Positions 1 to 59,225 of a stretch of DNA of 64,000 nucleotides are shown here, piece by piece. The stretch covers positions 7,253,947-7,317,946 of the forward strand of contig OZ007580.1 in NCBI GenBank assembly GCA_963931925.1, in the 5' to 3' direction. Position 1 is the first letter of the stretch. The number at the start of each line of letters is the position of its first letter. Source of the stretch: Onchidella celtica (taxonomy: Eukaryota; Mollusca; Gastropoda; Systellommatophora; Onchidiidae). Below the pieces are notes generated by a model. That model saw only the letters and a list, made by a program, of their open reading frames with translations, was not told where the DNA came from and made no database searches. The translations under genes and the position numbers were made by a program.

Positions 1-1863
1 TTAAGTGCAATAAAAGTGATTGAATGAATTAGCATGAGTTCGCAAAAATGCCACATTATAAACTTAGAATGTTTTGAGGGCAGAACCATTTGCCAACATA
101 AAGGTACCGAGCAAGTCTTGTTTGAATTAGTGGGGATTGTTTACACAATATTCCCAGTTATGACATCTTAAATAAATAAATGATGTGTTTGCTTAGTTCA
201 GCACTTCAGTTTATCATAGTTTATGGTGCCTCTCCTTTCTGTGTCATACTTCTAGTCTGCAGTGACAGTTCTTGACACTGGCAGCGTTTGGTGATCCCGC
301 TGCTTTAGTCTGTCATTTTGATGCTTTGGCAGATTTGATATTGGTGGAGACAATACTATCGATGGCTCTAGAAGTGAAATGCGGTCCCTGCGTCTGGGCG
401 GATTCGAATACTGTATTCCGAATCAATAAGCAGCGGTGAATACACTGATACACGGAATCGATTCCGCCCACACGCAGCTAAAATGCCAAACGGGGGGCCG
501 GGACCGCATTTATCTGCTAGTGCCCTATCGATGCTGTGATCTGTTCTCAGCAGGGAATCACAGAGCCGAACATTTACTATAAAAAACATCCCTTTATAGG
601 ACTAACTCGCCAGGGGGATCTGCTCCCTTGCCACCCCCCGTGCACAGCCACTCCTAAAGTAACAATGACACTCAGGCGCATTTCTTTGGGTCCGAAATAG
701 GTCACCGCTCGTGGGTGTATTTTTGGACTGTGTGTGAAAGAAGGCCGTTTACGGTTTTCTTGTATACACCTGTACCGTGTTGAAGCTGAGGTATGGTCAA
801 TTAAAAAAAAAAACACGTGGTTAGAAGGTCCGCTTTTTGAGAATATTTTCCTCTATAAATGTGTTCCAAATTCTAGTGGTCTGAAAACCCCATAACTTTT
901 TCATTTTTGGATGCACAAAGCTAAAGACACTCAACATAAATACAAAAATTTTTCAGTGGCATGGCTACCTAAAGTCGTGTCCTTGTGGAGATCCTTGTGG
1001 TGTACCCCTGCAATTTGGCATCAGCTGGTATTGAATCAGCCATTGAAGTGTGAAGATGGCAGACCGAAGCAGCAGGACCACCAAATGCTAATAGTGCCCA
1101 ATACTTACTCTCAGGAACAAGAATACCTTTGGCACAGTTGGTACTGAAATACCCACCCTAGCCAATGTTCCTGTGTTTATCAGACATAGATTTGTCTAGG
1201 ATTTCCCATGTAAGATTGCCATAGGGGCATATTTCAGACATCATACCAACGGGGGCCTGCTGTCTGTAGCCGGTAGATCTACATAGAAACGATGTCATTC
1301 CTATCAGCAAATTTGAGGTTAATCCTATGTCAATTTGATACTGGGTAAATTGCTGTCTGGGATATTATGCCAACAGGGAAATTTTTATGGCAGTCCTAAA
1401 TGGTAGAGCACTCAATTTGGAGTCTAGAATATGTGATTTTACAACCCACCACTGGGCTTAGTAGCCGAGCTTGATTCTCACAAATACTTACAGTTTGGTA
1501 GCAGACACTGTATGTATCACATATTTTATCATCTATTCAGGAAAAATTGAGTTTCTTTGTGAAAAAAACATGATATTCATAAAAGTTAAGGTTTGTTATG
1601 AATTAGTACAAAGTAATGCATGATTATTCAGATATTGTGTGTAAAATACACTGAAGTTTGCTAGCAGTAGCACAGCAAAGACAATGAAATGTGTCCATAT
1701 GAGATGCATTTTGCTCTGCACCTCCAAAGAGCAATCTACAAGTATGTTATAAATAAAGGTGTAATGGAGTTTTTGTAAAACTGCTTTGATTTCTGGCCTG
1801 TTTTCTATCCCAATTAGCGACAGGCCTAGAGGTCAGCATTAGAAAGGGCCGAGAACTCTTACA
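1..1863. other. 5' flank of the MINDY-4B-like gene
   Basis: No coding exon is recognised here. The only structure seen is the fold-back repeat near 357-532. The short open frames have no family signature and no splice context. The 60 bases before the ATG at 1864 probably belong to the 5' untranslated region, but no TATA box or clear initiator could be assigned. Confidence 0.5.
357..532. repeat. Fold-back (long inverted repeat) element
   Basis: The two halves pair imperfectly. AAATGCGGTCCC at 377-388 matches its inverse at 500-511. Further in, CTGCGTCTGGGCGGATTCG pairs with the inverse of the sequence near 452-477, and outside the halves share TATCGAT. This is the shape of a fold-back MITE or its relic. 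No target duplication was identified. Confidence 0.55.
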
Positions 1864-1971
1864 ATGGCAGAGACTGGCAACTCTTCATCACTGGCTGACA
1901 GAGATCAGCTGACAAGACTGCTGAAATTTCTGGAGACAGAAACAGGAATTGGACCAGGAAATGAGGGAAAG
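1864..1971 (+). CDS. MINDY4B: MINDY4B-like exon 1 (start codon)
   Basis: It starts at an ATG, encodes 36 residues beginning MAETGNSSSLADRDQ and ends in phase 0 at AAG|gtaact. An in-frame upstream coding exon cannot be excluded. The segment DQLTRLLKFLETE looks like a short amphipathic helix. This part is not recognisably conserved with MINDY-4. Confidence 0.65.
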
Positions 1972-4900
1972 GTAACTTTATATATTTCGTTCTTTAGAAC
2001 TGTGATCAAAAGCTATATAGACCCAACCTTCTTTCAGCACGCACATGAATCATGAAGAATTAAAATACAGGAGGGATAATTTGGGATTGGTAGGATGTAA
2101 TTCATTAGGATAGTAATTCCCTGATACCCGTATCTTCATGATGCCGTGTTCTCAAGTGTCCTCTGTGCTAATATGGGTGGTCAAGCCAACCCACATGGGG
2201 CAGAACCAGTGATTTTATAATTCAGGTTTCTGTCCTTTTTGAGACATAATGAGGCCTACTGTCTTATTGCTCTCTTTATCTTTTCTATATCAAAAGCTTT
2301 GTGACAAGAACATATTAACCCTCGTCCCGTGTTGAGTGAACTCGTCCACGTAACGCCCCATGCGGGGATAGCCAGCGGCCAGTCAGCCGATTGTTCGCGT
2401 GTTGCCGATAACCTCGGCAGTCGTGTCAATCGGGTCCTTGTGAACACTTGTATCGCGTATACTTCAGGACGCAATAACAACAATAGTGGTGGATAAATCG
2501 TAAGGGACCCCTATGATATTTGGATAAAGTGCTTGTGATGATATGCAGTAGGTTTTATTGTGAAATGGAAGGCCCCAAATCAAGAATTTTCTGCCTTTAC
2601 ATGCCGTTTAACACACATTTTATCATTTTCCCCAAGACCTCTGTGCTTTTTCTGTCCCTATGTCAGGCCATTCAGGTGGACAAATTATTTTTTAAGCCAT
2701 TCGCTTAATTTACTAACCACATGTATCGTGACATTGCCTTCTCCCTCCTCTACTATGTAAAGCGTCCACTTACCATAATGTTAGTTTTAGCAAGAGATTT
2801 GATTTCCAGTTCCAGGTCGTAGAGCACATACATGTACTGAAAAGCGGTTTAATCAAAGCAGCACAATATCTCTCTAATTAACACATCAAATAAAGACAAC
2901 GACCAACAACAAAGTCGGTCATTTTCTCCCAGTTTTCCCTGATGAAAAACCTACTGACAGACGCCCTTATGCAGCATGCCCTAATATTACATCGGAATTC
3001 ATAATTACAGATGTAGAACGGCGTCTCAAATACGCACTGTATTGGCCCTTTCTTCTCATTTCACATGTAGACGACAACCAGCATCAAAGTAAAAGTTTCC
3101 CCAAGATTTTCCCCAGTTCAAACTTCAGACCGTCAGTACTATTACACGAGTATGACGAATAGTTGCATCGTAATAAACGCAATCGAACGATACCATTTTG
3201 TTAGATATAGTAGGGGTGGCAGGATAGATAAACAGGCGAAAATAGTGTGGAAAAAAACAACAAAAAAAACAACAACGACAGCCTTGGCAACCGAATAAAC
3301 AAAGTGCGAGGAGCACCATTGCTATACAAAAATGTGGCCTCCCGCAGGACCCGCAGGACCCGCAGTTAAGCGTGTCGGACAAAATAATGGCCTCGCGTGT
3401 TGCGCGGGGAGGCCAATATAGTGGCCTCCCGCAGGACTAGGGTTAACCAATGAACCACTGGTCGGAATCACAAAGACTAAGCTTTCCAAGGGTGTCCCCA
3501 CACTATCAAAAGTCAAAGCATCAAGATGCGAACTGTTGCTTGACAAATTTCTTATTTAATGTTATTTTAGTTTTCTCCTAAAAGGCCATCATCTAGAGTT
3601 GTCTGTGACTAAGAACCAATCAGAAGTAAGCTCTGAAGTGACGTTTGCCCCAAATACCCACATTGACTCATTAGTATGTGCCAATCTGGACAAGATAACT
3701 TGTCTAGAGGTTGGGGCATGGTTAGTTGTCATGCTTTGTTCTCAAGAAAAATACAGCTATCAGTTTGGTATCATAAGTCAGATCTTTGGTTAGAGACAAA
3801 GATTTCACTGTTTAATTTATAATCCAGTGTCTCATTGTAATTGGGAGTCCCATGTCCCTACCAAAACAAACCACCTGCATAGCTGTACCATGTATCTTGG
3901 CAAAGCTCACTGACCCCAAAAAGATTCCCCATGAATTAGATCACTGACCCGGTCAACGGGCTCTACCCATCGAGTGCTGCTGGGGGTTAATTTGAGTGTG
4001 TGATTCACATTTTACAAGAACAGTCAGTGTTGATAGCATATAGGTAGAATGCACATATTCGCCATCTGTAGTGTCCAGACCGAATATCACCATGGCGATT
4101 GTGGCGTTGATTTTGATTCAGTTGGCTGATTTGCACCGCGAGCCACGGGAGGTGGCACGAACCAACCGGCAGCAAGCTAAAAATAGGTGACTACAGTAAA
4201 CTATGGCACTTATGTATGTTCAGTGGGCTGTGTTTGGCCAATTCTTTCACTTCCTTTCTCTTGCTTACGCGAATGGTAGGGAATGTGACCAGTTTGGGAT
4301 CCACCCTTTCCACCCCTGTCGTAGCAATCAACTACAGTGCAACTAGCAGGCATTTTAACTACTTATCTTAAAGTTACACTAATAAGCTGGTCCACTGGCC
4401 ATCTTTAGTGTCGAAAGATCAAAGCAAAAACACTCTGTGACGCCATGCGCATTCTGCCTATTAGATACGTTTATGTACTTTCAAAGTGTGCATTGTCTTT
4501 TTTTTCTCAGTAACTGTTGGTACTTTTCATTTCACAAACACCCTTTTTGTTGCTGAAGAAAGGCCTGAGATTAGAAGAACTTAGAGTGCTTTCTTTCTTG
4601 GAGTTCCAATGCTTTCATGGAGAAGTGGTACATCTTTCTGAAATATAAATTTGCTTGTAAACTAGGGATATAAATCATTGTTACATGATATGTGAACAGA
4701 GGGGAACTTGATTACATTGGATATTACCTATACTGTGATGTTGAAGTGTTTTGTATATAAATGAACCCTTCTGTTTCAGCGTCGATTGAGTGTTCCTCTT
4801 TATGGCCGTGTAAGATGTTATGAAGTAGTTCATTTTTAACAGTGGTCTCCGCCATCGAGCCCAATTTAAAAATGTAATATATGCTGCTTTACAGTAACAG

Positions 4901-7900: not shown

Positions 7901-10900
7901 CAGACTGAGTCTTAAAGGTTTAAAAACAAACAAAAGAAAGCAAAGAAAAATCGTTTGTCCCCAGGATTGACGGTATTGCCTGCAGCAGTTGATATTCCTG
8001 ACAAGTTCAGTGCTGCTATTGCAGTTTTCTTCTTTTCTGTCCTCTGTTTTCTTGTGTGAAGAACATTGGAAAATAGGTGCATTCATCTACTGGTTGTCCT
8101 GAAATTTTTGTTGCTCTGAGTTGAGTGTTTTATGAAATTTTATGTTAATGAACTTTTGTGTTATTGTTTTTTTCCCCCACATTAGGAGACACTGTGTTGT
8201 TCCCAACCTTGGCTCGTAGATCTGCCAATACCATTGGTGGCATCCCCATCACACTGGAAACTGCCATTGTGAGTTTCTACGTATTTAACTTAATGCTTAA
8301 GATGTTTATGCATCCCCAAAGTTTCTTGATTTGACATTTCTTCGTGTGAAACTATAAATGCGACAGAATATATGTCATTTTCTAGAAAACCTGCTTATTT
8401 TCAGGAATAATTTTGTGTTGTATGACTTGAGGAATTATTAGCAAAATTGTGTCAGCCATCTTGCACAAGCTTCAGATATTCATGAGAAAAACAGAGATGG
8501 CGGGAGAATTGTCAGTTTTCTTGTGTAGTGAAGAAGTCCAAAAAACCAGAACTGCTTTCTCTAATCAAACATCAGATGCGAAATAGTTTAAAGTCTACAA
8601 ACTAATTAAAGAAAAAGGCCACACATATCTTCGGTTCCCACCTTGTGATTCATATTATTTAAACACAACTGAACTGGTTTGGCAAATGTAAAGAATGATG
8701 TTGCAAATGCAAGTGCAAATAACACTTTCAAAATTGCAGATGTCAAAGAACTTTGCGTGTCATCATTGCCTGGAATCAGTAAGGAATACTGGACCAAAAA
8801 AAACAACTTCATTTTTCTTTTTTCTTCTCAACATCCTTAATAATGATGTACGTTTCATCATCTTATTGATATTCCTTATACAGTCTCCATGAAAACGTCC
8901 CTCTCATATGCGTCATTGAGTTACAGGCAAACTGACAACAAAATTATAGTTAATAAAATCAAAAGTTTTATCACTTGTTCTTTATTGTTCATGCCAAACA
9001 GTCATAGTGCTATTGAAAACTGCCTGTAATTTTGGAATCATCATCTAAGCAGGAAGTTTTTCAGTTTGACTATTCACACCCCACACCCCCCCCCCCTCCC
9101 CCCCCAAAGAATTGCCAACCGGCACTGCACTGTGGTGACAATGTGTCTGCTCCAGTTGTAACTGGACTGCAATGATACTAAAGCAAATTTCCCAAATGGG
9201 ATTAAAGAAGTATACAAAATACAAAAAAAATAAAAAAAACAAAATACATCTTAATCCCTTTACTGCAACACATTTTCCCCACCGTATGCTGAAAAACATT
9301 TCTCAGAGTGCATGAAGTTACAAGTGACAATTTTGAATGCCTATAGCTGGCTTAATATGAGAGGCAAACATACAAAAGTATGTATCAAATGAAAGAAAAA
9401 TCAACAGAGCATCTAATGGTAGCAATATTTTTGATATTGAAAGAGGTGCCTGATTCAAGATGCTCAGCCTCATCTGATTTGTAGCCTGGCTCACTGTCAC
9501 CACTGTCACAAACTTCTCTCAGTTGTAAACTGTCATCGTCTGTGGGATCAAAATCATATTCGTTGCTTGACGGGCATCTTGACATATTTCTTCTATAGCT
9601 TGATCAGCAGTGAACATGATTCTCTTTGAACCCATTTTATTGGTTAGCGTGACTTGAACAGTCAACGGGTGAGTGCTGGCTTCGACAGGCTACATATGCT
9701 GTGGCTTACACGCTACTAAGCAAAGACAAAATGACTAATCTGTTACAACCAGGAACCATGTTTTCAGAAAGTCCTGACCTTTCTGGGAATGTTATTTGTT
9801 ACCCTCTTTACTTTATTCAAAAGTGTTAACTGATCAAGAAGTCGACCAAAGAAAATAATGGTTTTAGTAGGAGCCATGGCATACATGGGCAGGGCCTTGA
9901 CACTCTTGATCTCAGGATGCACAGCATATGTCAACACTGCAGGGAAGGGATAAAGTATTTCTTAGAAATCATTTACACGATGTTATTATATAATGTTTTG
10001 CTGCAGTGTTAGTGTATAATGATTTTTTGTTTTTAATTACCATGGTATTCTAATTTAATTTTGTCATTTTAGGATCTGAGAAAGATTGTATATGGGTCCC
10101 CCATTCATTCTTTTTCAAAAGAATGGCGAAAGTCAAGCTTAGAGTTTTACTGCCTGGAGGGACAGTTTCCATACGGAATACAGACTTTAAGAGTAAGTGG
10201 TCAAATTTCAAGTGGCTCACAATCTACAGTACTTTCATCATCTTTAGATCATCTGTTGAATATAATTATTACTAGAGGTTGTAGTGATAATTAGGACAAT
10301 ATGGGCTTTTTAAGAGCATCCGAGAGGTGGAATGAGTGGCGAACAATGATCCTCAATATCTGTTCCAGATTGGCACTTGAAGATAGAGAGAGAGAGAGAG
10401 AATGATATTTATCTTTAAAATATTGAAATTATATGGTAGATCTATTAACAAAACTAAAAGCATTTTTATCTGCATTGTGGGTGGAACCTAAAAATTACAT
10501 GTTGTTATCTTTTTGTTCATAGAGCAGTGTGGGTGTACATGGTTGTTAATGCAATTTGATGAAATTGTTGCATATTATCTCTAATGTATGGATATTTCAT
10601 GACTTATGGCTTCTCATGTGACTGATAAGTCCTAATTTTGCCCTGAAGACCCTTCCGCATAAGTGACAAGAGTGCTCCGTGTCATGAAAGAACAGTCTTT
10701 CCATTCTGTCCTCTGTGTCCTTTACTTCTCTTTATTGTCCATGTGTTGAAATTCTCAACAATTTCTGTTCTTTATTCCTCTGGTGTTGTTAAGGTCATCA
10801 TCATACCTGATGGACGAACTATTAATTAATGGATATTTAAACAAAGCTGAGGATAATGGCCGTGGGAAAAACCAATATGTTGATACATACAGTTGATACA

Positions 10901-13900
10901 GATTGGTAGGAGATATTCATACCTGAGCCACTGAATCTCCATTCTGGAAATAAGCCAAACATCGCAAATGGGTATGGAATTTCCATCATAGTTACAGTTT
11001 CACATGTCAGAAAAGTCATGCAGTATGCCATTATTGTTGTATTATGAAAGGACAAAAAAATTTTTTTTAAAGAAAAGCCTGATTTATGGTATGTTACCTT
11101 TCAGTGTGGTTCAAGGGGCTTGGCTTTATGTGTTCAAGGTTACATGCTGAAACAATTGATATTTGATAGAGAATACAAGTCGTCTGTCTTGTCAGGGACT
11201 GGGTAAGTGCAGAGAGTATTTCATTCTTTGTGGGATTTCTGTGTTGTGGGAGCTTTAGAAAATTATTGCATTTGTTTTGGAGCAAACAAACTTGCATTAT
11301 CTCTGATAAATGGGATTTCTATGTTGTGGGAGCTTTAGAACATTACTGCATTTGTTCTGGAGCAAACAAACAACTTGTATTATCTCTGATAAAGAAGAAA
11401 ATCTTGCCACTGTTCTTTGAGGAGATAAAAATCCATGAGGCAAAACTTAATAACTTTTACTGCATGGGCTAGAAAGTAATGCACCATGTAATTGATAAAT
11501 CTGGAAGTTCTTTATAGAAACAGAGCAGAATCTCACTGATGTTTACAGCCATGAGACTTTCTTTGGTCACATTATTTGGAGAGCCAGGGAAAAAAATTTA
11601 CATGAAATGGATTTGAATTTCTGTATTTCTTTTGCATTTTCTCCCAATTTCAACTTTTTTTCTTTTCCTTTCCATCTTTTGTTTAGTATTTCTCATTGTA
11701 TGTCCTTTTTTTTCTTTGTGTCACATAGTGCATCTGTTTTCATTCTTCCTGGATTAGAAAATTTGTAGGCAATCTTACTTGCTCTATCAAATTCATGAAG
11801 GTGTGGTAATTATTGTCTGAACAGTAATGTTTTATTACAGTGTTTGTCTCATTCTTTTCTTTGATATTTTAGTGCTTTGAGTCCGAATGCATTTGAGCGA
11901 CGACGAGCCCTGATAGGGGCTATGTGTGAGATCTTGTGGCAGGCAGGAGAAAAGAAGAGAGCATGTGTGTGCTTGAAGGAAGTGGAAGCTTGTTTTGGTC
12001 CTGATTACAGATATCGACCAGACTCCATCACTGAGAAGGTGAATATGATTTCCTCTTAAGCTTTTGAAACTGCGTAGCGAATTTCTAGACATTTTTTTCA
12101 GACTATTGATGGAAATGCACAAGGACACTCAATAATATGTTTGAATAATCTAGTAATGATAATAATGATAGAGTACATTTATACAGCAGCTGTCTCCACA
12201 AATTGGACCCAAAATGATTTACCCCCAAACACCACCTTCTCTCTTTCTCTGTGTACTCACAAACATACTGTCATGCTGTGCAAAAGAGGCAAAGTTTAAC
12301 TCTTTCCCTACAGTGCAACGCACACTGGTTGCACACTTCCCTAGCAATAGCTGGTACAATGCATCCTGCATTGTGACATTGTAAGGGTATTCCTTGACCA
12401 CTATAATAGAAAATTTTAACATCCGGTGAGGTTGAACCTTAAAAATAGAATTCTTGGTGAAGCTTCCTTTGTCCTAGCATATCCAGCGATACCATGTGTG
12501 TGATAAATGTGTAGTTTGGACAGCTGTTATGTAGTGAAGTGATCTTTGTTTACAAATGCTGAGTGCAGTATTGCGTGTAACCCCAGGAAGTGCTCTGGCC
12601 AGACATCAAATGCTGGCCCGTAGGGAAAGAGCTAAGGGGGACATCATCAGTCAGTCAACAGATGTGTCAGATAAAAGACTGATTTTAGCTCTGTATTGAA
12701 TTTCTCAAATGAAGCATTATTGCCCAGTTACCAAATGTTTGGTGTATGTTACCAGTGATTACCTGCCATCCCTCCCCTGCTCACTGACTGATACTTATTG
12801 AGAATGGTCTCTACTTTCTCTCACTGGCAATCTCCCCTTCAGCTTTCTTTATTGGTCTGCTCTCTTTCTCTTTTCTGGCACACTTGGTTTTTACTTTTCT
12901 CTGTCATGTGCACGTTTTTTTTTTCACCATCTGAATTATTTTTCCAAAAACAGCTAATAAAATATTCAATTTCCTGTGTACATGTAATATATATTATATT
13001 GTTATTCCATGCAGTATTGTGACATGAAGCCAGGCACTTTCAAAAAAGCCTTTATTGTCCATGACTAATGCTGCAAAGTTACATTTCCATACTTTGTTCT
13101 AAATGAATATGTTAAACTAAAAATACCTAAAATTCACATTTTCTGAGTTTGGGTAGGACATGAAAGAAAGTATGGCAGTGTTCTGCATTTAAAAAGAAAT
13201 GGAAAAACAAAGAGCATCCCCCCCCCCCCCCCCCACAAAAGGAAGAAAAAAGAAAAAGTTACCAAGTTTGAAATTGATCTGCAATTTTCATTTCAGTGTC
13301 CCTGTGGCTGTGTCACCATCAAATTGTGTTGTAAATTTTATTTTAGCTTGTCTGAAAATCACCAATTATAGTGGATCATGCTGCATGGTGTTTAAGCCCG
13401 TTACACATAATTTATAATAAATTTAATGATTGTGTGACAGACCACTCAAATGTGAGGCGGCCCAGGAAAACCAGGTCAAAGTCTCAAAAATCACATTTTG
13501 TAATTATGTTCCTATCTTAATCTACAGCCATTCCTGGTCATTTTGCTTTTTATTTCATGTTGATATCTCACCGGAGTTTGAAGTCGGGAGGGTAAGAAAA
13601 CATGAAACTGAGAAAATCGCATTTAACGTGGCTGAACTCCGTGAATGCCCGCATTCCATCAATTTTACGTATATTTTTGTTCGTTTTATGTTATTAAAAG
13701 TACAAAATAACATTTAAAACTAAGTAGAATATTATAGTATGTAATATTTTACCATATAAACAGGTTATCCTTTGCAAAAAACCAAAAATTGGACGGATTA
13801 TTGTGTGTGACCTATTTTTGGATTCTAGGTTATTTCTGTCATGCGCACTACATTTTGGTGCCATATATTCATGCGCATTCACGTGAAATAGATTCTACAC

Positions 13901-16900
13901 GTTGTGCCCATTAAAATGAGTGTAAAGATGGGGGGGGGGGGGTCCGCCAAAATTGACTTTATTAGCCTATATCTCGGGACCTCCCAGTGCGACTTTGACC
14001 GGGTTTTCCTGGGCCGCCTCACAAATATTAAAGAACAACTTGACAACTGCTTGATCCATTGTTGGCTGGGTCATCCACTGAGAGAAAGGTCATGCAGTTC
14101 AAAACATGTGCATTTCAAAACATCAGTTTATTCGGGAACAAAGATGTCTACCAAGGCAATTTTACGTACCTCTTCACCTTTTGAACACTGGTCCCCCTGT
14201 CCTTATGAATGCCTGTCCCTGGTCCCCCAGCCCAAAATTGCCATTTTCATAGATAATAATATAATGATGGAAACACACAACAAACACAATATTGATGGAT
14301 AGGGAGCAAATGTGAGTATTATAGAATGTTTTTCTTATCTTTTATCTCCAGTATTGGGCCTTGATATGCCAGTCGGTCCAGCACGTTCAGCCCCTTTTGA
14401 TTCATACAAAAACTTTGCATTCTGTGCATTCATCATGAAAATTTCACAAAAAACCTCTCCAAACTACGCGCTGGCTTCTAGTTTCTCTTTGTTTACAACT
14501 GGGAATAAAAAATGGCGGCCAAACAGAACTTTTGATGATGTAGGAGCACAAATATGCGGTGTCACCCTTCTGACCACTGTACCAGTCAATAGTGTATATA
14601 CATTGCCGTAGAATTTGACTGGTGTACCGGGCAATAGTGTTCAAAGGGTTAAAATAACAAACAATGCTTTTGATGACAGTATTTTCCGGTTACATGCCAT
14701 CTTTCAAAGAATACTTGAATGTTTTCATTCCATTTTCCCAGCCACATTAAAGTGCAGGTCATCTTGAATGGAAAAATGGTCAATACAGTGAGCCCTTATC
14801 AAACGCTACCCCACACACAAAAGTATACCTGTGTTAATACATTTTAGTGTTTTGCACGGGCACTCCATTTGTGTCAGTGTTGGATGTAAAAATGAGTGCT
14901 AGTTGAAAATTATGCATGACACTGAATTGAACAAAAAGTACTTTCCAGCAACTAGATTAATGCAATGTTCAAAAGGCATTACTTCAGACCAAAGGGAATC
15001 AGCAATACAATTTTGGTTAGAATAGATGGAGAGATAGCTGTATATATGTTACAGTCAAACCCAGAAACTAGTCATTCTCGGGAAATGCCTGAACATTCAG
15101 TCATTCCCAAGTAATTCCTATTTTGATCAGGCATTTCCAGGAATGCCTAAAAATATTACTCATTTTCAGAGAATGACTGAAAAAGGCAGTCAGGCATTTC
15201 CTAGGAATGACTACTCTCGAAAAAAACCAAAATGGCGGAATGACAGATGTGAAGTAAATGACAGACGATACATGCAGTAATTTATTCATCCCGTTTAATA
15301 AAAGAAAATAATATAAAAAACTGATAATATAAAAAACTGATAACTACATATAAAATGTTCATTAACACGAGCTCATTTGTTTTTGCAGTTGAGACTTTGG
15401 TGGCATCGTCTATTACATTTGAGCTTTGCTTTGAAGCATTTACACCTGTTTGTTTGACATTTCTTTGACACTGAACAGTTGCATTTAATGTAACCCTGAC
15501 CACCACACTGAGAGCCAAATACAACCGCTTCTCTTAAACTGACATGTGTGGTCCAGTTAACCTCGCTCATTAGAAGTAATTTTTCAGGGCAAAGTTCAAA
15601 TTCGTTCCTGCTGTATGCCCCTTTTAAGATTCCATGTTTGGTAGCTAGTGTGTAGTTATTGTTGTCACTTCTGTCCAAAATAACAGCCAAAATGTTACGT
15701 GGGTCGCCATGGCCTCGATCAACAAGAGGAATGGGAATGGCAACATTGTCACTTTTCTGGCCTGGAGCGAGTTCTATTCTACTTCTTTTTACCATCCGTT
15801 CTGCTTGCTCCATCTGGAATTTCCTACTCTGCTCTCTATGAAATTTTATTTGAGCCTGTCTAGCGTCAAGAAGTGCCACGTTTTAAACAGTGCCAATGTC
15901 ATCAACTTGGTCAACGTGAGAAGAATTCAGGTTTGTGGCTTGCCCGTTTGTAACAACAAAGTTTATGGCTTGCACAGAGTGTGGAAAAGCAACGTCTGTG
16001 GTTTCGTCGACATTAGGAGCAGCAACCTCGGTGATTTCGTCGATATGATGAGCAGCAACCTCGGTGATTTCGTCGATATGATGAGTAGCAACCTCGGTGA
16101 TTTCGTCGACATGAGAAGCAGCAACGTCGGTGATTTCGTCGACATGATGAGCAGCAACGTCGGTGATTTCGTCAATATGAGGAGCAGCAACGTCGGTAAT
16201 TTCGTCGATATGATGAGCAGCAACCTCGGTGATTTCGTCGATATGATGAGCAGCAACCTCGGTGATTTCGTCGACATGAGAAGCAGCAATGTCGGTGATT
16301 TCGTCGACATGATGAGCAGCAACGTCGGTGATTTCGTCGATATGAGGAGCAGCAACGTCGGTGATTTCGTCGATATAATGAGCAGCATTCTCGGTGATTT
16401 CGTCGACATGAGAAGCAGCTGCTTGAGCTGTTTGCTGGGCAAAGGCTCGTAAATCGTCTTCTGACTGAAACTGGTCCGGCATTTCCATTGGTAAAGATGT
16501 TGAGTTAAGGCCCACCCTTGGTTCAACACCCAGCAGTGCTTGGTAAGGCGATCGTTTGACGGCGGCATTGAATGACCTATTCTTCATGAACTGTACAAAT
16601 CTAAGTCCAACTGACCACTGGGTGGTGTTGTTGTCTGACATCCAGGAAATCAGCATGTCCTTTATGTCACCGTTGGCACGTTCAACTGAACCTTGTGATT
16701 GTGGATGCCTGGGCTTGCCATGAACAAGACAAAGCTCAGGCCACAACTTCTTCAACTCTCTGATGACAACTGCTGTAAACTCGGAACCATTGTCTGACTG
16801 AAGAATCACAGGAGCGCCCAGTAAAGTAAAAATATCCACCAACTGAAACGCCACCTCACAAGCTCTTTTTGATGTCAGAGGTCTCAATACGACGAATTTA

Positions 16901-17375
16901 GTAAGACGGTCTTGGTAAACCATAATCCATTTATACTGACCGTCACCCATTGTCTGAAAGTCTATGAGATCAACTTGTCCTCTAGATGAAAATTCATTTG
17001 AAAGAATGGGCCGGACAACAACACCTTTTGTCTTTTGTCTCTTTGTTTTTTCCTGGCACACCTTACAAAAAGACTTGAACAGTTCTATGCTTTCTCGGTG
17101 CACATTTGCAAATTTCTTTTCAAGTTCTTTAATCATCCTGTCACGCCCGCCATGTCCTGTCGCAAGGTGAGCAGTTTTGATCACACCATAGGTTTCTTCG
17201 AGCGTAACAAAGTAGACTGGCGATTCTGTTGGTGACTTGCTTCTCTTTATTAGCTTGTCCAAGTGGCCGCATTGCAGTATTTCATATCTGTGTAAAAGAA
17301 CACCATTAAGAAACAGTTATAGTTACCAAGTAAGAGAGAGATATTTTTGCGTGTTCAAATAAATAAATAAATAAA

Positions 17376-17408
<33 letters not shown>

Positions 17409-20400
17409 CAGTAGCAGCAGCAGTATTAGTAGTAGAGAGAGAGAGAGAGACCACAATGACTGCGGCGCTAAAAATAGACATATAAACAAACGTAATGTTG
17501 GCCTTAAGTCTAACAGCATTAATTAAAAAACACGTCATGCCATCAAAGTTTTAATAACAAACGAGCGTGTCGGAAGTGTGTACTCGGTCCCCACATTCGA
17601 CCACAATGACTAAGCGTGTTCAAATAAGAGGGATGTGAAACTACAACTTAAAAACAGAGAGAGAGAGAGAGACAGAGAGACAGAGACAGAGAGAGAGGGA
17701 GAAAGAGAGAAGAGATAGAGTAAGAGAGAAAATCGAAAACAGAGAGAGAGAAAGAGAGAGAGAAGAGATAGAGTAAGAGAGAAAATCGAAAACAGAGAGA
17801 GAGAAAGAGAGAGGAAATAAAAAGTAAGTTAGAAACAACAACAATTGAAACTGACCTTGATTGAAGCTTGTACTGTCGAGCTGTTTTTCTGGCTACACCC
17901 AAACTCGCCTGCAACTGATGTATAATTTCCTGATATTTGGTCTTGGGTAATAGGTAGTTTGGGTTATTTTCAAACTTTTCAAAAAGCCTTCTGGTAAAAG
18001 TTTCTTCCCAAGGAATTTCAGCCATGTTCAACCTTAACTATTAAGTGAATATTAATGACAGGTATCAGGTTTGAACTTTCGCTACTTTGAGACATGCAGA
18101 GTTACAAAATACACATGTAGAAACCACTCTTAAGCTTATTCACCTCAATTTGGATTAACACAGTTAAATAAGTGAGTGATAGTCGAATATAGTTAAATAA
18201 GTGAGTGATAGTCGAATGGTATGACTGTTACAGTCAAACCCAGAGAATGACTGAAAAAGGCAATCAGGCATTTCCTTGGAATGGTATGACTGGTGGGTCA
18301 AAATAACAACCAGGCAAAGCTGGAAATCTGAGGCTTTCATTTTCAGACATTCTCCGAGAATGCCTGGAATTTTTAGGCATTCCTGGAAATGCCCGATCAA
18401 AACAGGAATTACTTGGGAAGGTACACTCAAAGAGATAAACTGAGTGAGAATTGTAGTGGTATATAGATTCATAAGTGTGGCACTCCAGGAAAACCCGTCG
18501 GATGACGCACAGGCTGCTTTTGACATACAGGCCTACAAGGTCATTTTTCTGTTTCTCGTGTTACTGCACCTGACACTTTAAATGGCCATATCTCAATTCA
18601 AACGCTATATGAGATATTGACTTCAAATAAAAAACAAAATACACAGAAAATTACCCTCTTTCATAATAGCTGTATATCTCAAAATGTGAAATTTGACCCA
18701 TGCGAAGGGTTTTCCCAGAACACCACACATATCATTTGCTTTATACAAAGTTTCTCTTAAATTATGTATGTGAAACAATGTTGTAACATTGTGGAAAAAG
18801 AAATTGTCTATAAAAGCGATAGTGTCCACATCCATTATAACTGAATTTCATTGAATCCTCACCTTCTCATGTCACAGTATTTGATTATTTGCTCTGTTTA
18901 TTCACTGTCACATTTTTTTATATTTATGTATGTGTTCCTACTAGATTCAACTATTTGAGTTCAAGAAATTTGAAGATTTGCAGAATTTTGTCAAAAGAAA
19001 TTTGGAACAGGTAAATTTTACGTACTAGTATGTTACTGCTTCAGCCACTCATACTTTTAGAACTTTGTAATATTTCAAAGGGCAGTGCCATTTGCCTTTT
19101 ATTGCAATTAGTTTTTAACTTCATTGCACTGTCATTGTTTTTTTGTACTGGAATTCTGATTCATTCTTGTAGAATGCTATATTAGTAAGAAATCTTTAGA
19201 ACTTTCACAGCAGCAGACCTCGACAGTCATAATATGGGAAGAAGCAATTAGAGAATATGCAGCCATGTCCAATATTTCATCTTGATCAATTTAAGTACAC
19301 AGGCATTTTAAAATATTTTTAAATATTCATTCTTGCTGGGCATTTAAGAGTGCTGTGATGTCATGTTAACATTAGCCCTTGATATGTATTTTACAGTATC
19401 TGAAACTCAGCTGTCGCAGATAATATGGTAGAATTGCTTTTGTTTGCACCATCACATAATCCATACCTGTGAAACATATGCCCAAAAAAAATAAATAATT
19501 GTATACATTTTTTTTATGTCACGTATTGTTTTATATTCTGACATTGCATGTAATCATCATCTATTCCCTCATTTACTTTGCTGAAAATTTTAAAAAAATG
19601 TTTTGTTTCATTTGCCAAGAAGGCTTGTTGTAGGGACAGACTGAAGTCTGGCTCTGTGGGGAACCATCTAGTGCTGAAACTTTTGTTATTTCACAGTTCA
19701 CAATAGGGATTCCCGGGCTCTGTTTCTGTATGAACAATTAGAATCAGGTTACATCAGACAAAAATATAGAAGTTGACCAACAGTAATCAGTTTTACATTA
19801 CTAAATGTTTCCTACAGATACTTGGGCAAACCTACTGAGAAATACAAGAAAACCCCCCAAAATCTGTTGACCCGTAACATATTCTAGTAAATTTATACAG
19901 GGGAAGTTGGTTTACCAAAATTTAAGGGACCAACAATTTTATTTCGTGCTAACATTATTTTGCAGAAAGAGTTTTTGATCTAAAATGATAATTTTCAGTC
20001 TCTTAAAGGGAAGCAATCGTGATACCTTTGTAATTTTACTTTATTACCATTAGCTGTACTGTATCCAACAATGGGAATGAGATAAGTACTTCTGTATGGA
20101 AACTGCAGAGAACTGCCAAAACAGCAGGTGGTGATCAGCCAGTTGTATCAAGTGTGAAATATTTTAGCTGCCTGACAAATACTGCTGACGAATGTATTCT
20201 GGTCAATGTGACATGTTTGACAAATTCATAATGGCCCACATAAAGATGTGAAAAGGATGGGGTGACAGGTGGGCTCCTTGCTGTAACTGTAAGGGCACTT
20301 TTCTGTCTATAATAGTATATTATCTTCATGGTCTAACTTTATAACATTATACTCTCAGCAGAAATCTTTTGATTAAAGAGAACTTCTGTATAACCTAGTC

Positions 20401-23400
20401 ACCCCGCACCGTGCATGAGCAACCTACTTTACAACCAATATTATGCTGGGTGCGATAATTGAGTCCCTCGTTGCCCAATGAGGCACAGACCCTTAGTTTG
20501 TGAGATCTCACATTGTATACTGTACCACTTATGTTTGCGTTCAGAAGATGTGATATTCCTGTCCTCTACTTTTAATACTTCATACCATGATACCCTGTCA
20601 CATTGTAGCTTTATCAGGAGATTTTTTGTCGATTTTCAAACTTACCCCAAAATCGTGCATATGCAGGGAATAATTGCTATGAAATAAGAGTGTTCAGAGG
20701 AAAGGTGAAATGTGTGCGCCGTGCATTGTGAAAGGGTTAACCAACTTCCACTGTAGTAGATATTTAATTCATGCTTTGTAAAGATATGAGAATGATTTTT
20801 CTTTCTTGTTTTCTTTTTTTTACAGTGCTATATTGGAGGAAGTATGTCTGTCCAAGTTGGCTTGTTCATATTTAAGCTTATCTTGTCTTCTGACACAGTC
20901 GACACAGTCCCATGTAGTTGCTTTACACATAATATAGCTTGCACATCTGTGTTGCATTTTCTCACCAGGCATATTACTTTCCATATTTCAGTTTCAATCT
21001 GAGCAGGGGAATGGGTGTATACTCTTTCTGTACAGCCTGGTGCTTTCTAGAACAATTCCAAAGTGAGTTAGCAGTTGGATGTGGTGTTTTCATGCTATCA
21101 CTAAAATATGGTAGAGAAGACTGCAGCACAAAATATTGTAACAAGACCTTGAAATATTTTCTTCTTTTACTGTTTACTTTGATTTGCTTATAATGCTGTC
21201 AAAACTCAGCCATAAGTCAGATAAAGAATTATTGCAAATCCATTTGAATCTGATAGAAAGATTATCAAAGCTGAATAAATTTTGTTTCAGTTTGTGATCA
21301 TTGGAGTACTTTCTGGTAATGAAAGCTGATGCATTTGTTTCACTGAAATATGTACAAATGAACTCTTTCAGGCCTGCATATTTTCATATATTTTGCCCAC
21401 ATTAAATTTCAAATGTTATAAAAAATATACGGTAATACTTTATTTCCTTCCATGAAACACATATTTATTTATTTATGTAATCCTTTGAAACTATGATGAT
21501 AGAAATGAATAAAGACAAAGAGAAGAAAAAACGCAAATGCACTAATTCAAAATAAAAAATAAACTTATGGACATTTATTGTGGTTAGGTTATCATGAGCA
21601 ACATGATCATGACACTGTGCATTGTTTGGGCCTTAAAGAGTTATAACACTGTGACTAAAATCTGTCCTTTTACTATCCCCTCTTCTCTCTTGCATATCAC
21701 ACCTGAAGAAAGAGTTAATTCTGTCACAACATCTGAGTAAAACTCAAGTTTGATCCATATTAGTTTTAAAAAGATGTAATGAAGTAGAGCCCATTGTCAA
21801 CTTCCAAATCAAATGTCAAGGGAAATAAATTTTCATTCAGGAGGAAAGGAAAATTGTTTTCACCAGTGCGAGTGTCTTCTGGCCCTCTGTTTGAGTTTTT
21901 GTTGAAATGTTTGTGTGTAAATTCACCATTCTTAAGTGAGACCACAAAATGACCCTATAGTATGCAGAACGTGGGCCATAAAAGCATGGTTGCAAACATA
22001 GATTTGACTTTTTATCGTTGTCATTCATGCCAGTAGATTTTTGTTATTGAAATTTATTAAAGTATTAAAGTAATTGTTCATTTCTGTGCTGAATTGTAGG
22101 CCTAACCTCTTAAGATCAGGTTTAGTTGTGGTCACTACGATTTTGTATTGCCACTTGATATTGCAATTTACTGTTTTTGTTTGCATTAGCTGAAGGACTT
22201 CCGATTTATCAAACCCTTAACAATTGTTTTTTGAAACAAGCAAGTTCTCTAGTTATAAAATTTGTTAACATACTACTTGTAATACAAGGGGAACTGTCTG
22301 TAACAAAATCCATTACTTCTTGGATGAAGTATAAAGCAATGTAGAACGCCTGTTCTGCGAAAAGAAAAAAACATTATCACGTGGGGTGTAGCAATATATC
22401 CTAAGTGTCTTGGTCATATTAGTGAGAAGCAAGTATTTTGGGACCTAATTGTATTTTGCAAATCAGATTCAGTCCAGACATACGGAAATAAAGAACACTG
22501 AATGAAAACATGAAATAAGGCCTGATGTTTTTTTAGATGTCTTTTTAGTCTTGGCATGTATGACTAACTTGCATACTCTTGAGAATTTCTTATCTTGTCC
22601 TTGTGGTCCCATTTTTAAAAAAAACTCATTTCCTACATTCACTTTAATGGGTGTGGACGGGAACTCTCAACACTATCCAGTTTGAAATTTAGATGTAATT
22701 CGAAGATGTTTCTTCTTTCCCTCAGTATAAACACAAGTCATAATACATTAGACATTAAAGTAAAGGAAAATCAATGAACCAGAATGGGATTCAGTATTTG
22801 AGAAGTTGGCTTAGGTATTAGTGGTGGAAAATTAGTGTCCGTTCGGGTGGAATATTCATCTTTACTTTGTGAAGTGAAAATCCGCAAGTCGAATATTCGG
22901 CTTACCATAGCGATTGAGTGAAAGGAAATTAAGGAGAAGATTTTTAACATACTAGAAAAATAACTGTGTAATAATGATGGTCCTAACTATTAGTGATGAA
23001 ATAAAGTATATGTTTTTATGTGGTTTATAGGGTACGAGAAGACTTGCAAGCAGACCATGAGACTAAAATCAAACTACTGACAGATATGGAAGACATTTCA
23101 CAGAGTTTGCTCAATCTTGCCCTTACTGGCAAGGCCACACCTTACATTCACAATGGAGAACTTGTGTATGATGATAAAGGATTCTTACTGGTGAGTTTGT
23201 ACATCTTTATGTATAAAATGTTTATAAGGGTTAGTGATTAGCTTAAATTGAGTTTTCTGTCAGTCAGTTTCAGTTAGATTCTTATTGCTGTGAAACAGGG
23301 TTTTGATAACATAAAAATATTTTAATTCCACTGTACACCTTTATTTTGCCAGCACCTTTTTTTTCAAATCGATGAGAGAACTGGCTAGAGATAGGTCTTT

Positions 23401-26400
23401 CTAGATGGAGGTACATTTTTATGGATTTCAATGGTAGCAAATATTGATATAAAGGCTTAAAAGTTGTATTCTACTTGTAAATTTCACCTTTCACCAAGGT
23501 GTTGTCCATCCACTGCAGGATGTCGCCTCCTCCGATAATGATTTCCATTCTTCTCTGTTGTTTTCCTAATCCATGATGTTCCTCCTCTCTGTTTTATGTC
23601 GTCTTGCCATCTTCTTCCTGGTCATCCTCTTGTTCTTCTTCCTGTCTTTGGTTGCCATTCAGTGCAGTGTTTTGTCCACCTGTCGTCCTGCATCCTTCCC
23701 ACATGTCCGGCCCAATTCCCCTTTTGATGTAGCATGAATTTTACTTTGTCAGTTATTGCTGTTCTATTTGTAACCAGTAGGAACAAATCCCCATGATTAC
23801 ATTTTATTGGATTTTCTCGTTTGCGTAAAATCTCCGCGAATCCATGAATATCGGGCAGGTTTGGGAGAGTTTATGGAACTTTTGTTAAGGCTCGTGACTG
23901 AAAATGACCAGATGGCAAGAGAGTAGAACAAAGTAGAAATAGGGAGAGTTGAATTTTGTATTTAATGCAGTCCTTGACTACAAATGGCACTCACTCAGTA
24001 TGTTGACTTTGCCATGTGTATGCCCATGAACCCATTCAGATGAGGAACTTACTCCTTAAAAAAAAAAAAAAAAAGAGAACACCCTCACGTTCCACACAAA
24101 ACTGGATCCAGATTTGGACTTCTTGTGTGTGTGAGAATACTTTCTGGAACACATCATACACATATAATATAATAGAGCTAAAACTTGGTGACTACACTAT
24201 CAAAAATCATGAAACTTAGCATACTGTCTCACTTTTTGATGATAAGTTACGTGGACACATTCATTTTGGACAAAAATCACTCTTTAATACATGTATTTGT
24301 TTAAGATCTTTTTGAGCCACAAAAATAGAGATGCATTTTCGTCAAGTAAAATCAAAAAGCATGATCGGAAATTTCATCTTTACACATTGGTGGTTGAAAA
24401 TCAGCATAATCACATCTGTGTATTTCTTCATAAGTTCTATTAATCCTTGCATCGAATCCAAATACTGCTTTTAATGTAGCCCAGTTCTAGATATGCGATT
24501 GGGTTTCCTACAAAGAATCTGATTGATTTATCTTGCGTCAGGTCGGCTAGTATGTATAATTTGTCAGTGGAATTGTATAGAAGACATTGATTTTTTTTTT
24601 TTTCAGTAATGGTGGTAATTTGTGAGGCACAGGTCTTATGAAGTGGTGATGTACTTTTGGTGGCATCAAGGGAGTCAAATGAATGAATTATTGATTGTCC
24701 AAACTATTTCCATTTCAGCCCTATCCTGTGTATGGTATACAAACCAGAAGCCAAGTAGGATTTTTGTTTTGGGACAAGGGAGAAAATCCTGAAAATAGAA
24801 CTGAGGTAAGTCTTATGATTTTTTTCCCTCTAATTCTATAATTATGTCCGAGTCTGTAATTTAGTCTCACTATCTCCGTCATATTTCTTTTCTTTAGTTT
24901 AGGACATGCCTGGCGTAATAGCACAGTTTGTGTTAAACGTATTTTTTTCACACCACCTTTAAGCCTTGCGGTGTCACAAACCTCCATAGAGATCACTGGC
25001 ATTTTCCTGAAAATGTGCACCTAGACCGCTATAGCGGTGGATCAGGGGTAGGTTGGATCTATGATAAAGTATTATGCGAATACAAACGATGGCATTATAG
25101 TTTCTTTTTCATGAGTTTCAGGAGTGATTTTCGGGTAATATAATTTACCACTATGTCCCAGGGCTGTGACACCGAAAGAGTTAAGTCATATTTTCCCATC
25201 TTTATTTCATTATTTTTTCCATGAACTACTGATTCCTGGAAAAGTAATTTAATTTCACTTTCACCCGTGAGGTCAAGACATGTTAGCTAGTTTTATCCTT
25301 TTGAATCTTTTCATTTCCTAAGCTGATAAGTGATTACAGAATGAAAGCAGTTTGTCTTAGTCAAACAATATGTGAATTTTTACCCTCTTTAACTCACAAT
25401 ATTATAAAATGGATGATAATATCAGCATCAAAGTTACCCTCGTCTCAGCAGTTTTTTTTTTAAAAGTTCAAACTCGTTTGGATTAGGCGCTATATAAATG
25501 ATCTTCATTATTATTATTGTTATTATTATAATCATTACCAAGTTTGTTGTATGCATAATGCCAGATCCAATCGAATCATCATGAAATGAATAGGTTGTAT
25601 TTTGCACAGTGCACACTGTGCCCTGACTTGTTCTTTGATCAGCTTTTTTTCTTTTTGTTTTTTTAAATGATCAGATTGGGTCTATGCTCAAGACTCCAAA
25701 GAACCCAATCTGGGTAACCAAGGTGAATGGTTTGTATGGTTTGCTGTTCAGCCTGAACCCAGATTTAGTGTGTGACTGGCGAGTGGAGAACAGATTTACA
25801 ATGTTGTATTACACAGGACTAGTCACACAACCCAAACCAACAGTTTTGTCTATAGGTAAAACATTTTCCTTACTGTAATTCGGTGTGTTTTTTTCATTTT
25901 GATGTTATTTCTCCAATTTGGCATTTGTTTGCCTTATGTAATTTTTATTCTTCAGAATATAGTGAATGTTTTCTTTTTGTCAGTTACATTTGTACATGTT
26001 ATCATGTAAATTTAAAAAAATAAGTGCTCCAGGGACAATTGGTAAAGAAGAAAAGTTTGTACTAATATTCATATCATTCCTAAATGAAAGCTGACTCTTC
26101 CAAAACATTTTCAGGCTATGGGAGAACATTTAACCCTCCCGAGCCCCAAGTACCATAAGTGAAACGGTGTTCACTTACAGAAATGTGACCTTTGTACATA
26201 TACCATACCATTTGCTTAATTACGTTAATGTGATTTTTTTTTACAGGTGTATAATAATGAGAATCTAGGGGAATGAAAGATCATGCTGTAGCATTGAAAT
26301 TGAAGTTAAAACACATTTCAGACATATTTCAAAATTTGTCTCTTCTACTGCTTGGGCCTAAAGGATTGAAATTTCCTTTCTCTGCAACAAGTATCTTCCT

Positions 26401-28696: not shown

Positions 28697-30881
28697 ATTC
28701 CACGTTGTCAACAATGTAAGAATTGAATCAAGATGTTTTGATCAGAAAAATGATTGTTTTAGTGAATAATTAAATAATTAAATTGCTTCTGCATCTTTGG
28801 CCATTTCAGTTTGAATATTTGGATCTGCTCAACATTATATTGTTTTCAGTCTGTGTTCAGAGAAAGTCTCAATAGAAAAAGGGAGTAATAGAAATTTTCT
28901 GTTCTTTTTGTTTTGTTTTGTGTTTTTTTTGTAAATTTTTCATTCTCCAACTGGAATTGTTGTCCTGAATTGATTTTAGATGTATGCAGAAAGACCATAA
29001 CAGTTTTTGTTCTATGGGGTGCTGATAAAACATCCATGCCAAATTGTGAAAACCAAAGATTCTGTATTTTCTGCAGATTTTGTATTGTGTGATAACTGGG
29101 TGAATTGACCTTAAATATGATGTCATGTGTATAGCATTTAATCCACACAAAAGCTGTTTTCTTTGATGAAGGAAAGGTTTCCAATAGCTTTGCCTTTCCT
29201 AAATCAATCAACTGGAACTGTCATTCCCATTGTCCATACCTGTATATATCAAAATGGTTGTTTACTTTTGCAACATGCGTGAAAAGGGTGTAGGCAGGCA
29301 GTCTTCAGATATCCCCTTGGGCTATTGGAGATAAGTAGCCTATGCATTAAAATTTTTTCCTTAAATTTCTTCCGTTTCTTCTAAGGAATAACCAGTGACC
29401 AAATACAACAAAAAAAATGATCTACAATCAAATTAAAAGTGAAGATTGTTGTGGTTTTTGGCACTCAGATGGAACTATTTAAATACAGTAATCTTATATT
29501 TTTGTCGCTGTATTTTCTAAGGATATTATATCAGAGTTGGCTGACCTATTTTTATGGCCAGGAAAAAAATGTAGGCTTTTTCAGGAGTTCGATCTTTTTT
29601 TCTTTTCCAGTCTATGGTGTTGTTTTTTGTTCTTTGTTCACGAAATTTACATTTTTATGTAGAGTTCAGTATCTTGTTTCCACTGTTGTTCACAGTGGAC
29701 GCAGAAGTCTGTTACAAGACTGAGCAATTTTTCCCCCCGATGTCAGTAGTTAAGGGACCATGAAAACTGGTGCACAACATCTGTATGAGAATAACGAATA
29801 ATTTAACTCGGGTTATTGTGATTCTCCTTATCACAGATTTCGCCATCCCAAGCGTTAGTGTGAAAAAGAAACAGGTAACTTTTCAAAGATGTTCATCTGT
29901 GCCCCGTAATTATTGTGTAATAAAATATTCCATGGCATTTTAATGATCTACTTTTGAGAATTATGTTATAGAATTTTTTGTACATATCGGGAATTTTCTA
30001 ATCTGCAGGATCAAGGATTCTATTATAAAAGAAAATAGTAGCGAGAGTAATTCATTGTGGTGCAATTTTTGGTCTTTTTTTTTGCTCAATGCTACAGCCT
30101 AAATGACAGTTTCAGAAGTTAGAAAATCAATTTTCTTAAGTGTCAACTAATCCAGCCTAATCACTTTTGTATCCACCGATTGTATTGATTTAAGTTTCGG
30201 GTATTTTTAAATAAAAAGTTGTAAAAATGTGAAATGCAAGGGTCTTTGTTTTTTTGCTCCCTGTAAATCTATGGCCATCATTTCATGTTGCTTCATTTGT
30301 TATTATGATATCTTGAATTCCATTGCTGTGATATTTACGCACATGTTTTACAATAGATTTACAAGTGTATATTTATGAGCATTTATATATTCTGGTATAA
30401 ACTTTGCTGATAACATTTGAAAGACTGGTCAATAGTTATTCACAGTCTGATCACAGTTATCAGGATTTCGATTTGGATAAACTAGTGGATAAACAACATA
30501 ACTTGCTTAGAAATGAGTACCTCTGATTAAGGCAAACACTATTCATTCCATTAGTTTCTTCTCTCTGTCACAGGAAAATAGAGAAGTTCATACATACATG
30601 TACTAGGTTCTATAACTGCTTGATTAGCTTTCCCTCTCTACAACTGTATTTCGCATCTGAGAGTTTATAACACAGAGGGCTCCGTCTTATTTCTCAGCTA
30701 GCACATAATCTCACTGGAATGAGGAAGCTCTGATAAACATGGTCAGATTGTAAATGTTACTACCTGGACTGACATTCAGTCTCTAATTGATTGGATCAAT
30801 TATTATTCGTTTCATTCAGTATTAAGTTCATGCATTTAATAATGAGTTGTTAGTTTTCAAATGTCTGTGAGCAGAAAATTA

Positions 30882-31172
30882 TAGGTAGAATGCGCATGAC
30901 ATCACAGAGTGTTTTTGTTTTGATCTTTCGCCACTAAAGATGGTCGGTGGATCAGCTGATTGGTGTAACTTGGAGGTATGTCTAAGTGGTTAAAATGCCT
31001 ACTAGTTGCATTGCAGTTGATTGCTAGGACAGGTATGGAAAGGATGGATCCAAGCTGGTTAGATTCCCTGCCTAGCAGTGCAAATCAACCATCGAATCAA
31101 AATCAATTCCACAATTACCATGGTGGTGGGTGGATCCAGACAAGAAAGATGGCGGATATGCCATTCTACCTA
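30882..31172 (+). mobile_element. TIR MITE, family A copy 2
   Basis: Ends TAGGTAGAATGCGCAT and ATGCCATTCTACCTA are inverted, and TA lies at both borders. The left end continues with CACAGAGTGTTTTTG and GATCTTTCG, the inverse of the right end of the 4041-4460 element. The interior frames are accidental. Confidence 0.8.
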
Positions 31173-50443: not shown

Positions 50444-50689
50444 CCCCTTAGAATAACAAGGTTTTATCTCCACTTTTTGGCTGAACTGAGTTAAGCACTT
50501 AACACTACGTCTACGGGCCTTCTCCATTATGTGTCAAAATATCAAGCTGATAGTTTACGGTGTGTAATTAGTATGTATTTCTAAAAGGACACAAAGTCCT
50601 ACCGCTGTAAGCCTTGAGCACATCGAAGTTCAATCACCAATTTCTCAAAAGTTGAATGAAGGGACTTAGAACCTTGTCAGTCTATGGGG
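50444..50689 (+). mobile_element. TIR MITE, family B copy 1
   Basis: Left CCCCTTAGAATAACAAGG and right inverse CCTTGTCAGTCTATGGGG form TIRs. The interior shares CTACGGGCCTTCTCCATT and TCAATCACCAATTTCTCAAA with copies at 57877 and 60082. Confidence 0.8.
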
Positions 50690-51904: not shown

Positions 51905-52545
51905 CATCTAGTGTTGAACCATTTCTAAAACTCCTACAGGCGGACAAACTTTTGTACCATTTTTAGAATCCCTACAGGCGGACACACCTTTCTGCCATTT
52001 TTAGAATTCCTGCAGATGGTCGAACCTTTGTGCTAAAGTTAGAACCCTACAGGCGGGCAAACTTTTGTATCATATTTAGAAACCCCATAGGCTGACAAAC
52101 CTTTGTACCATATATTTAGACACCCAACAGGCTGACCAACCTTAGTCCATATTTAGAACTCCTACAGGTGGACAAACCGTTGACCATTTCTAGAATCCCT
52201 GCAGACTGGCAAACTTTTGTATCATTTTTAGAACCACCACAGATGGGCAAACCTTTGTACCATTTCTAGAATCCCGACGAGGGGACAAACCTTTGAACCA
52301 TTTTTACAATCCCAACAGGCGGACAAAGCTGTGCGCCATTTCTAGAACTCCAACAGATGGACAAACCTTCATACCATTTCTGATTTCTAGAAAACCTGCA
52401 GACGGACAATCCCTGTAGGCAGACAAACTTTGGTACCATTTCTAGAAACCCTGCTGGTGGGAACAACTTTCTACCATTTTCAGAACCCCTATAGGCGGAC
52501 AAACTTTCGTAGATTTCTAGAATCCTTGCAGGCGAGGAAACCTCG
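51905..52545. repeat. Minisatellite, about 42-bp unit, about 15 copies
   Basis: The unit is roughly CCATTTCTAGAATCCCTACAGG followed by CGGACAAACCTTTGTA. Units are diverged and vary by a few bases in length. The minus-strand frame at 52266-52502 derives from it. Confidence 0.9.
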
Positions 52546-59009: not shown

Positions 59010-59194
59010 AGAGACATAGAGAGAGAGAGAAAGAGACAGAGGGAGAGAAAGAGAGAGAAAGAAACTCGCAGATATACAGACAGACCTGTGAGAGATGTAG
59101 AGAAGGAGAGAGAGAGAGAGAACGAGAATGAGAGAGACTCACGGACATACAGATAGACCTGTGACTGATAGACGGGCAGAGAAAGAGAGAGAAG

Positions 59195-59225
<31 letters not shown>

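Follow-up and report, generated by a model that had tools for sequence, protein, structure and literature searches.

The closest described systems are the Ginger2/Tdd DNA transposons, which have ends of the form TGTNR, a 4-bp target-site duplication (TSD), an RTATAY target and a transposase with an H2C2 finger and a DDE (Asp-Asp-Glu) core (PMC2836005). Their terminal inverted repeats (TIRs) are about 50-180 bp long and their sizes, in Table 2 of the same paper, run from 2.75 to 6.7 kb (PMC2836005). The DNA analysed here is a 64,000-nt stretch of contig OZ007580.1 of the gastropod Onchidella celtica (the window; all coordinates are positions within it). At positions 15047-18419, two related blocks enclose a gene on the minus strand. 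Judged from sequence, this region belongs, with a probability of roughly 0.92, to a Ginger2/Tdd-type family of cut-and-paste transposons, as a copy that is truncated on the right and interrupted by a stop. The kind is already known; for this family, the exact ends and the target sites could be located.

The Onchidella family has in common with Ginger2/Tdd (Bao, Kapitonov and Jurka 2010, PMC2836005) the TGTNR ends, the 4-bp TSD and the RTATAY-type target, as well as long TIRs, the H2C2 and DDE motifs, the size and a short non-autonomous derivative. It differs in four features that the Ginger2 section of that paper does not mention: a conserved VDRG-DPRNIL segment, a Cys-rich tail of CXC-like type, palindromic TIRs and a coding minisatellite with units of 11 aa. 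A Ginger2-like DDE enzyme, TIRs and (AT/TA)n insertion are also described for endogenous sesarmid nimaviruses (PMC10871703). The nimavirus genomes measure 265 and 285 kb, the Onchidella element about 3 kb.

Ends and target sites

The outer features of the window copy are as follows.

15043..15046, no strand, presumed left copy of the 4-bp target duplication, TATA in the context GTATATA, which recurs in copies L085, L089 and L095
15047..15215, plus strand, left terminal block, 169 bp, internally palindromic, with an intact terminus that starts TGTTACAGTCAAACCC
18226..18419, minus strand, right terminal block, truncated; in an alignment with 11 other right ends it stops after TTGGGAA

The two blocks are related through an inverted match of 80 nt (88%, E 6e-26) and a direct match of 43 nt (95%, E 1e-16), both far above chance. 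This confirms the first-pass annotation of this DNA, which had described related, partly inverted palindromic blocks around the gene. Its bounds of 15051..18425 are corrected to 15047 on the left and to 18419 for the end of the right block. Its further suggestion that the element has its own termini is not supported for the window copy as regards complete termini. The right block lacks the terminal 57 bp that are present in the 11 other aligned right ends; it is therefore not a complete terminus, and the right TSD is not visible. The sequence TGTTACAG at 18226 was considered as a right or nested end and rejected, since it is subterminal in other copies too (aligned in 11/11, exact in 9/11). 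When the genome was searched with 18322-18700, 484 candidates came up and 40 of these places were scored, the window being one of the 40. The 39 others match only from 18454 to 18475 onward, and 18420-18453 has no other match among the scored places. With its right end lost and an in-frame stop in its gene, the window copy is most likely a relic for which normal excision would not be possible. Positions 18470-18732, adjoining the truncated end, resemble a miniature inverted-repeat transposable element (MITE) with inverted ends, which occurs at 39 other scored places in the genome.

The left block was found at 17 places in the 1.14-Gb genome, window included, over block positions 1-167 or 1-169 and at 94-100% identity. 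An inverted partner lies 0.2-11 kb away at 16 of the 17. Three of these partners are truncated (the window, C11:23360235 and C3:13659938), and C14:20785085 is the sole left block without a partner in the match list. Twenty stretches were fetched, and 12 copies in them have both ends. Read in the window orientation, all 12 start with TGTTACAG and 10 finish with CTGTAACA, the others being L096 with CTGTAATA and L091 with TGTTAACA. The ends thus fit TGTNR: TGTTA on the left in 12/12 and, read inward, TGTTA on the right in 11/12, with TATTA in L096. The TIRs measure 137-155 bp. Identical 4-bp TSDs flank 10 of the 12 copies, mostly TATA. The target preference is of the RTATAY type, often in a GTATATAC-like context; TACA and CATA are used too, and it is not a strict rule.

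Matches to exon 1 and tail place the gene inside 11/12 two-ended copies; the exception is L097, a MITE-like derivative of 189 bp without the gene. A second short derivative, L090, is about 1.4 kb. The paired hits around other copies and the short deletion derivatives that the first-pass annotation predicted for a transposon were both found, and the blocks are neither generally unpaired (16/17 paired) nor generally gene-less (11/12 with gene). One member, L099, spans 7.1 kb and contains at about 1458-3890 an 811-aa open frame, presumably an insert.

These copies also bear on the reading as a single-copy domesticated KRBA2/SCAND3-like host gene that lies by chance between two MITEs. The gene-less L097, the unpartnered left block at C14:20785085 and the internal palindromes of the blocks would fit it. 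On the other side, the gene lies between the same two blocks in 11/12 two-ended copies, identical TSDs stand outside the block pair in 10/12, the window frame is broken and the core has at least 146 scored matches genome-wide. This reading was rejected on the paired copies with TSDs outside the pair and on the gene-bearing copies, and is highly improbable.

The transposase gene

The gene runs on the minus strand and has the following parts.

17856..18025, minus strand, exon 1, starts MAEIPWEE
17288..17855, minus strand, intron of 568 nt, GTCAGT...TTTTACACAG, contains simple repeats; the junction is unbroken in relatives L117 and L136
15373..17287, minus strand, exon 2 with H2C2 finger, DDE core, linker of 11-aa repeats and tail, interrupted by a TAA; rve PF00665 E 8.9e-08
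15980..16420, minus strand, 33-bp coding tandem repeat of DEITDVA-type 11-aa units, 13 in the window copy by motif count
15883..15885, minus strand, in-frame stop TAA between linker and tail; the frames of twelve other copies read through
15373..15882, minus strand, tail frame with the VDRG-DPRNIL segment and a Cys-rich CXC-like end; PF03638 E 0.6, below cut-off

The two-exon structure proposed at first pass stands, with exon 1 at 18025-17856 and exon 2 from 17287 on the minus strand. The splice is supported because the related N-termini of L117 (sister family, 46% over 84 residues) and L136 (more distant, 35% over 98 residues) run continuously through the junction. The intron itself is absent at this junction in both.

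The HHCC finger and the D-D(36)E core were likewise found as annotated, in the forms H-x4-H ... C-x2-C and D-58-D-36-E. The rve match passes the cut-off and the Integrase_H2C2 match (E 0.0025) falls below it. Of 41 loci given, 38 had a match; among the loci that cover each residue, the catalytic residues are present in all (D1 34/34, D2 35/35, E 36/36) and the finger residues in nearly all (H1 33/33, H2 32/33, C1 34/34, C2 32/35). The Cys-rich tail reported earlier is present, but the frame is broken before it by the TAA at 15883-15885, which had escaped report. The position of this stop is read through in L085-L089, L091, L093-L096, L098 and L103. The likeness of the tail to CXC/TCR domains is weak. 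A Pfam scan of the tails of six members did not resolve a tail domain, and the tail, when its fold was predicted by itself, yielded no usable model (mean pLDDT, the predicted local distance difference test score, 38.6). The number of 11-aa units in 14 other copies ranges from 1 to 16, the 16 of L089 being spread across three frames. In a scan of the window and 20 loci, one of the 21 sequences, L093, has an exon-2 frame that is uninterrupted between the acceptor side and the tail end (636 aa). The remaining 20 carry stops, frameshifts, deletions or inserts.

The solved structures that match the core are retroviral integrases, the best being that of prototype foamy virus (PFV, E 4.7e-18). Together with the TG...CA ends, which are common to long terminal repeats (LTRs; PMC2836005), this likeness would suit an isolated integrase fragment from an LTR retrotransposon of the Gypsy type. 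The ends, however, are inverted repeats rather than direct LTRs, and the gene is split by an intron whose splice sites are conserved. No reverse transcriptase was detected in the three window frames scanned by Pfam, and the 2.9-3.5-kb copies hold, on the coding strand, no frame of at least 150 aa besides the transposase and frames overlapping it. An LTR fragment was rejected on the inverted ends and on the lack of reverse transcriptase in the frames scanned, and is scarcely credible.

Ginger1 belongs to the same superfamily as Ginger2 and has the same TGTNR ends (PMC2836005), so the element could in principle be placed there. Its targets, however, are of the TATA type and not CCGG or CCGT, and neither an OTU nor an Ulp1 Pfam match was obtained in the window frames and the tails of six members. 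The GPY/F and YPYY motifs, which Ginger2/Tdd elements lack, were not visible in the translations on inspection by eye. Assignment to Ginger1 was rejected on the targets and the missing OTU/Ulp1 match, and is very unlikely.

Ginger2/Tdd remains the preferred assignment, and a conventional cut-and-paste route can be proposed for it. As for Ginger elements (PMC2836005) and integrase-type enzymes in general, this route involves a DDE transposase, TG...CA ends and a 4-bp stagger. The Onchidella transposase would bind the internally palindromic terminal blocks. By analogy with Ginger and the integrase-type DDE enzymes, it would then pair the two ends, cut at the TG/CA termini and join the ends to RTATAY targets with a stagger of 4 bp. 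Binding to DNA or chromatin is the probable contribution of the Cys-rich tail.

Age, related families and insertion-free sites

Divergence from the majority sequence was measured as Kimura two-parameter (K2P) distance in the 13 of 21 copies that cover 85% of the region, and is rate-free. It is 0.4-2.4% in the core (window copy 1.0%) and 0.4-1.6% in the tail (0.8%). The pairwise pattern is star-like, with no pair much closer than the rest, which fits one recent burst and a young family. The first-pass description of a live or recent source is therefore kept for its second half: the recent spread of the family stands, and "live" is not supported for the truncated, stop-bearing window copy.

The matches in the genome search with the core cluster near 95, 67, 51 and 47% identity. 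They number 146 scored of 9813 first-look candidates, which is a lower bound, and a few copies are in two pieces. Among loci L115-L134 of the sister families, 15 were judged two-ended (L115, L116, L120, L123 and L128 were left out), and 13 of the 15 have an identical 4-bp TSD, mostly TATA. The sister TGTTA ends are no independent test because these ends were located by a TGTTAC search. The sister TIRs are about 140 bp, that of L136 is 82 bp and that of L137 is 253 bp, longer than the Ginger2 range. L136, in the 51% group, has ends TGTCACGC (TGTCA) with TATA on both sides, and L137, in the 47% group, has ends TGTCGTGC (TGTCG); both fit TGTNR. Core and tail lie in a single open frame in several relatives, e.g. 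L117, L119, L124, L132 and L136. Protein scans of viral contigs, genome contigs and phages gave no relatives outside the Onchidella celtica genome. A 15-mer scan of viral contigs gave 75 stretches, about the number due to chance by a rough estimate, and was not used.

Two features of sister elements were also seen. In the tail of L124 (2809-3093), and likewise in L127 and L132, a 93-bp coding unit occurs three times in tandem and in frame; L120 has it once. The flanks of L133 (516-3485) are mutual inverted copies, as if it had inserted at the centre of a palindrome, with no identical TSD.

The flanks of the window copy and of 27 insertions, each pair joined, were matched against the window and the fetched stretches, and five junction-crossing matches were compared residue by residue. 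Two insertion-free sites lie in the window itself.

14552..14652, minus strand, insertion-free paralogous repeat resembling the flanks of sister-family L125, 89%, TATA kept
22623..22873, plus strand, insertion-free paralogous repeat resembling the flanks of family copy L085, 80.6%, no gap at the junction

The junction is crossed also by L118 against L135 and by L091 against window 4360-4190, both more diverged. The match of L091 with L097 is gapped over the target and uninformative. Other matches extend over a junction by 16 to 21 bases, namely those between L097 and L088/L109 and those of L122 to the window and to L128. The paralogous sites support, at the level of sequence comparison, insertion with a 4-bp duplication. 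The empty-site alignment suggested at first pass thus yielded two paralogous sites and no orthologous allele.

Several observations weigh against the Ginger2/Tdd assignment or the insertion history drawn from it. The TSDs differ in family copies L087 (GTTA vs TATA) and L088 (TACA vs TATA), in two of the 15 sister copies (L126 and L133) and in L137, whose flanks read TATA and TATG. In AT-rich flanks, chance agreement is likelier for TATA than for a random 4-mer. The insertion-free site for L125 has a 2-nt gap beside TATA, the target in that for L085 reads TAAA, and both sites are repeats related by paralogy (80-89%) rather than orthologous alleles. Membership is by published features rather than by a tree, since no Ginger2 protein was aligned.

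The host gene and the KRBA2/SCAND3 question

The element was first annotated as antisense in a host intron, and exons on the plus strand flank it on both sides. Judged by its profile matches, the host gene is a MINDY-3/4 deubiquitinase. Six plus-strand exon candidates, chosen partly with the MINDY sequence in view, were scanned with the Pfam profile MINDY-3_4_CD. They lie approximately at 10073-10192, 11105-11202, 11873-11964, 18945-19010, 23031-23188 and 25643-25870. Joined, they match with E 9.4e-53. Singly, five of the six match, three below the cut-off (E 0.00036, 0.00067 and 0.0018) and two well above it (3.6e-09 and 9.7e-19). The exons around the insertion are:

11873..11964, plus strand, approximate host exon upstream of the insertion, profile positions 73-100, E 0.0018, below cut-off alone
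18945..19010, plus strand, probable host exon downstream; no match alone, but with it joined on, the next exon scores 45.1 bits instead of 36.5
23031..23188, plus strand, host exon, MINDY-3/4 profile positions 172-217, E 3.6e-09

The element lies antisense between the third and fourth candidates, and between exons of the gene even without the fourth. No exon was identified for profile positions 100-165, so the intron is delimited only approximately. Two joined host exons had no match in a search of the PDB. Elsewhere in the window, 59010-59677 and 51913-52534 are diverged self-similar (tandem-like) stretches, and 4041-4461 / 30881-31172 and 50447-50689 / 60084-60333 are dispersed repeat pairs.

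The first-pass annotation called the integrase KRBA2-like; the kind with which its examined features agree is Ginger2/Tdd. KRBA2 and SCAND3 are listed as "rve" genes among retroelement-derived domesticated genes (PMC3257199). Their likeness to the Onchidella element, set beside them by description only, is the integrase (rve) core; they differ in that they are listed there as retroelement-derived, whereas the element is a DNA transposon. Tentatively, and with the odds somewhat against it, a Ginger2 sub-lineage with the VDRG-DPRNIL segment and CXC-like tail, recently active in Onchidella celtica, could be the DNA-transposon source of KRBA2/SCAND3-type genes. In the literature searched, no paper connected Ginger2 to either KRBA2 or a CXC tail. 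Should core and tail turn out to be nearest to KRBA2/SCAND3, a DNA transposon would replace a retroelement as the listed origin of such genes. The analysis yields a probable Ginger2 family, young and well bounded, with exact ends and TSDs, plus several related families, in one genome. It also raises the prospect that, in genomes of this sort, gene models resembling integrases are in fact transposases.

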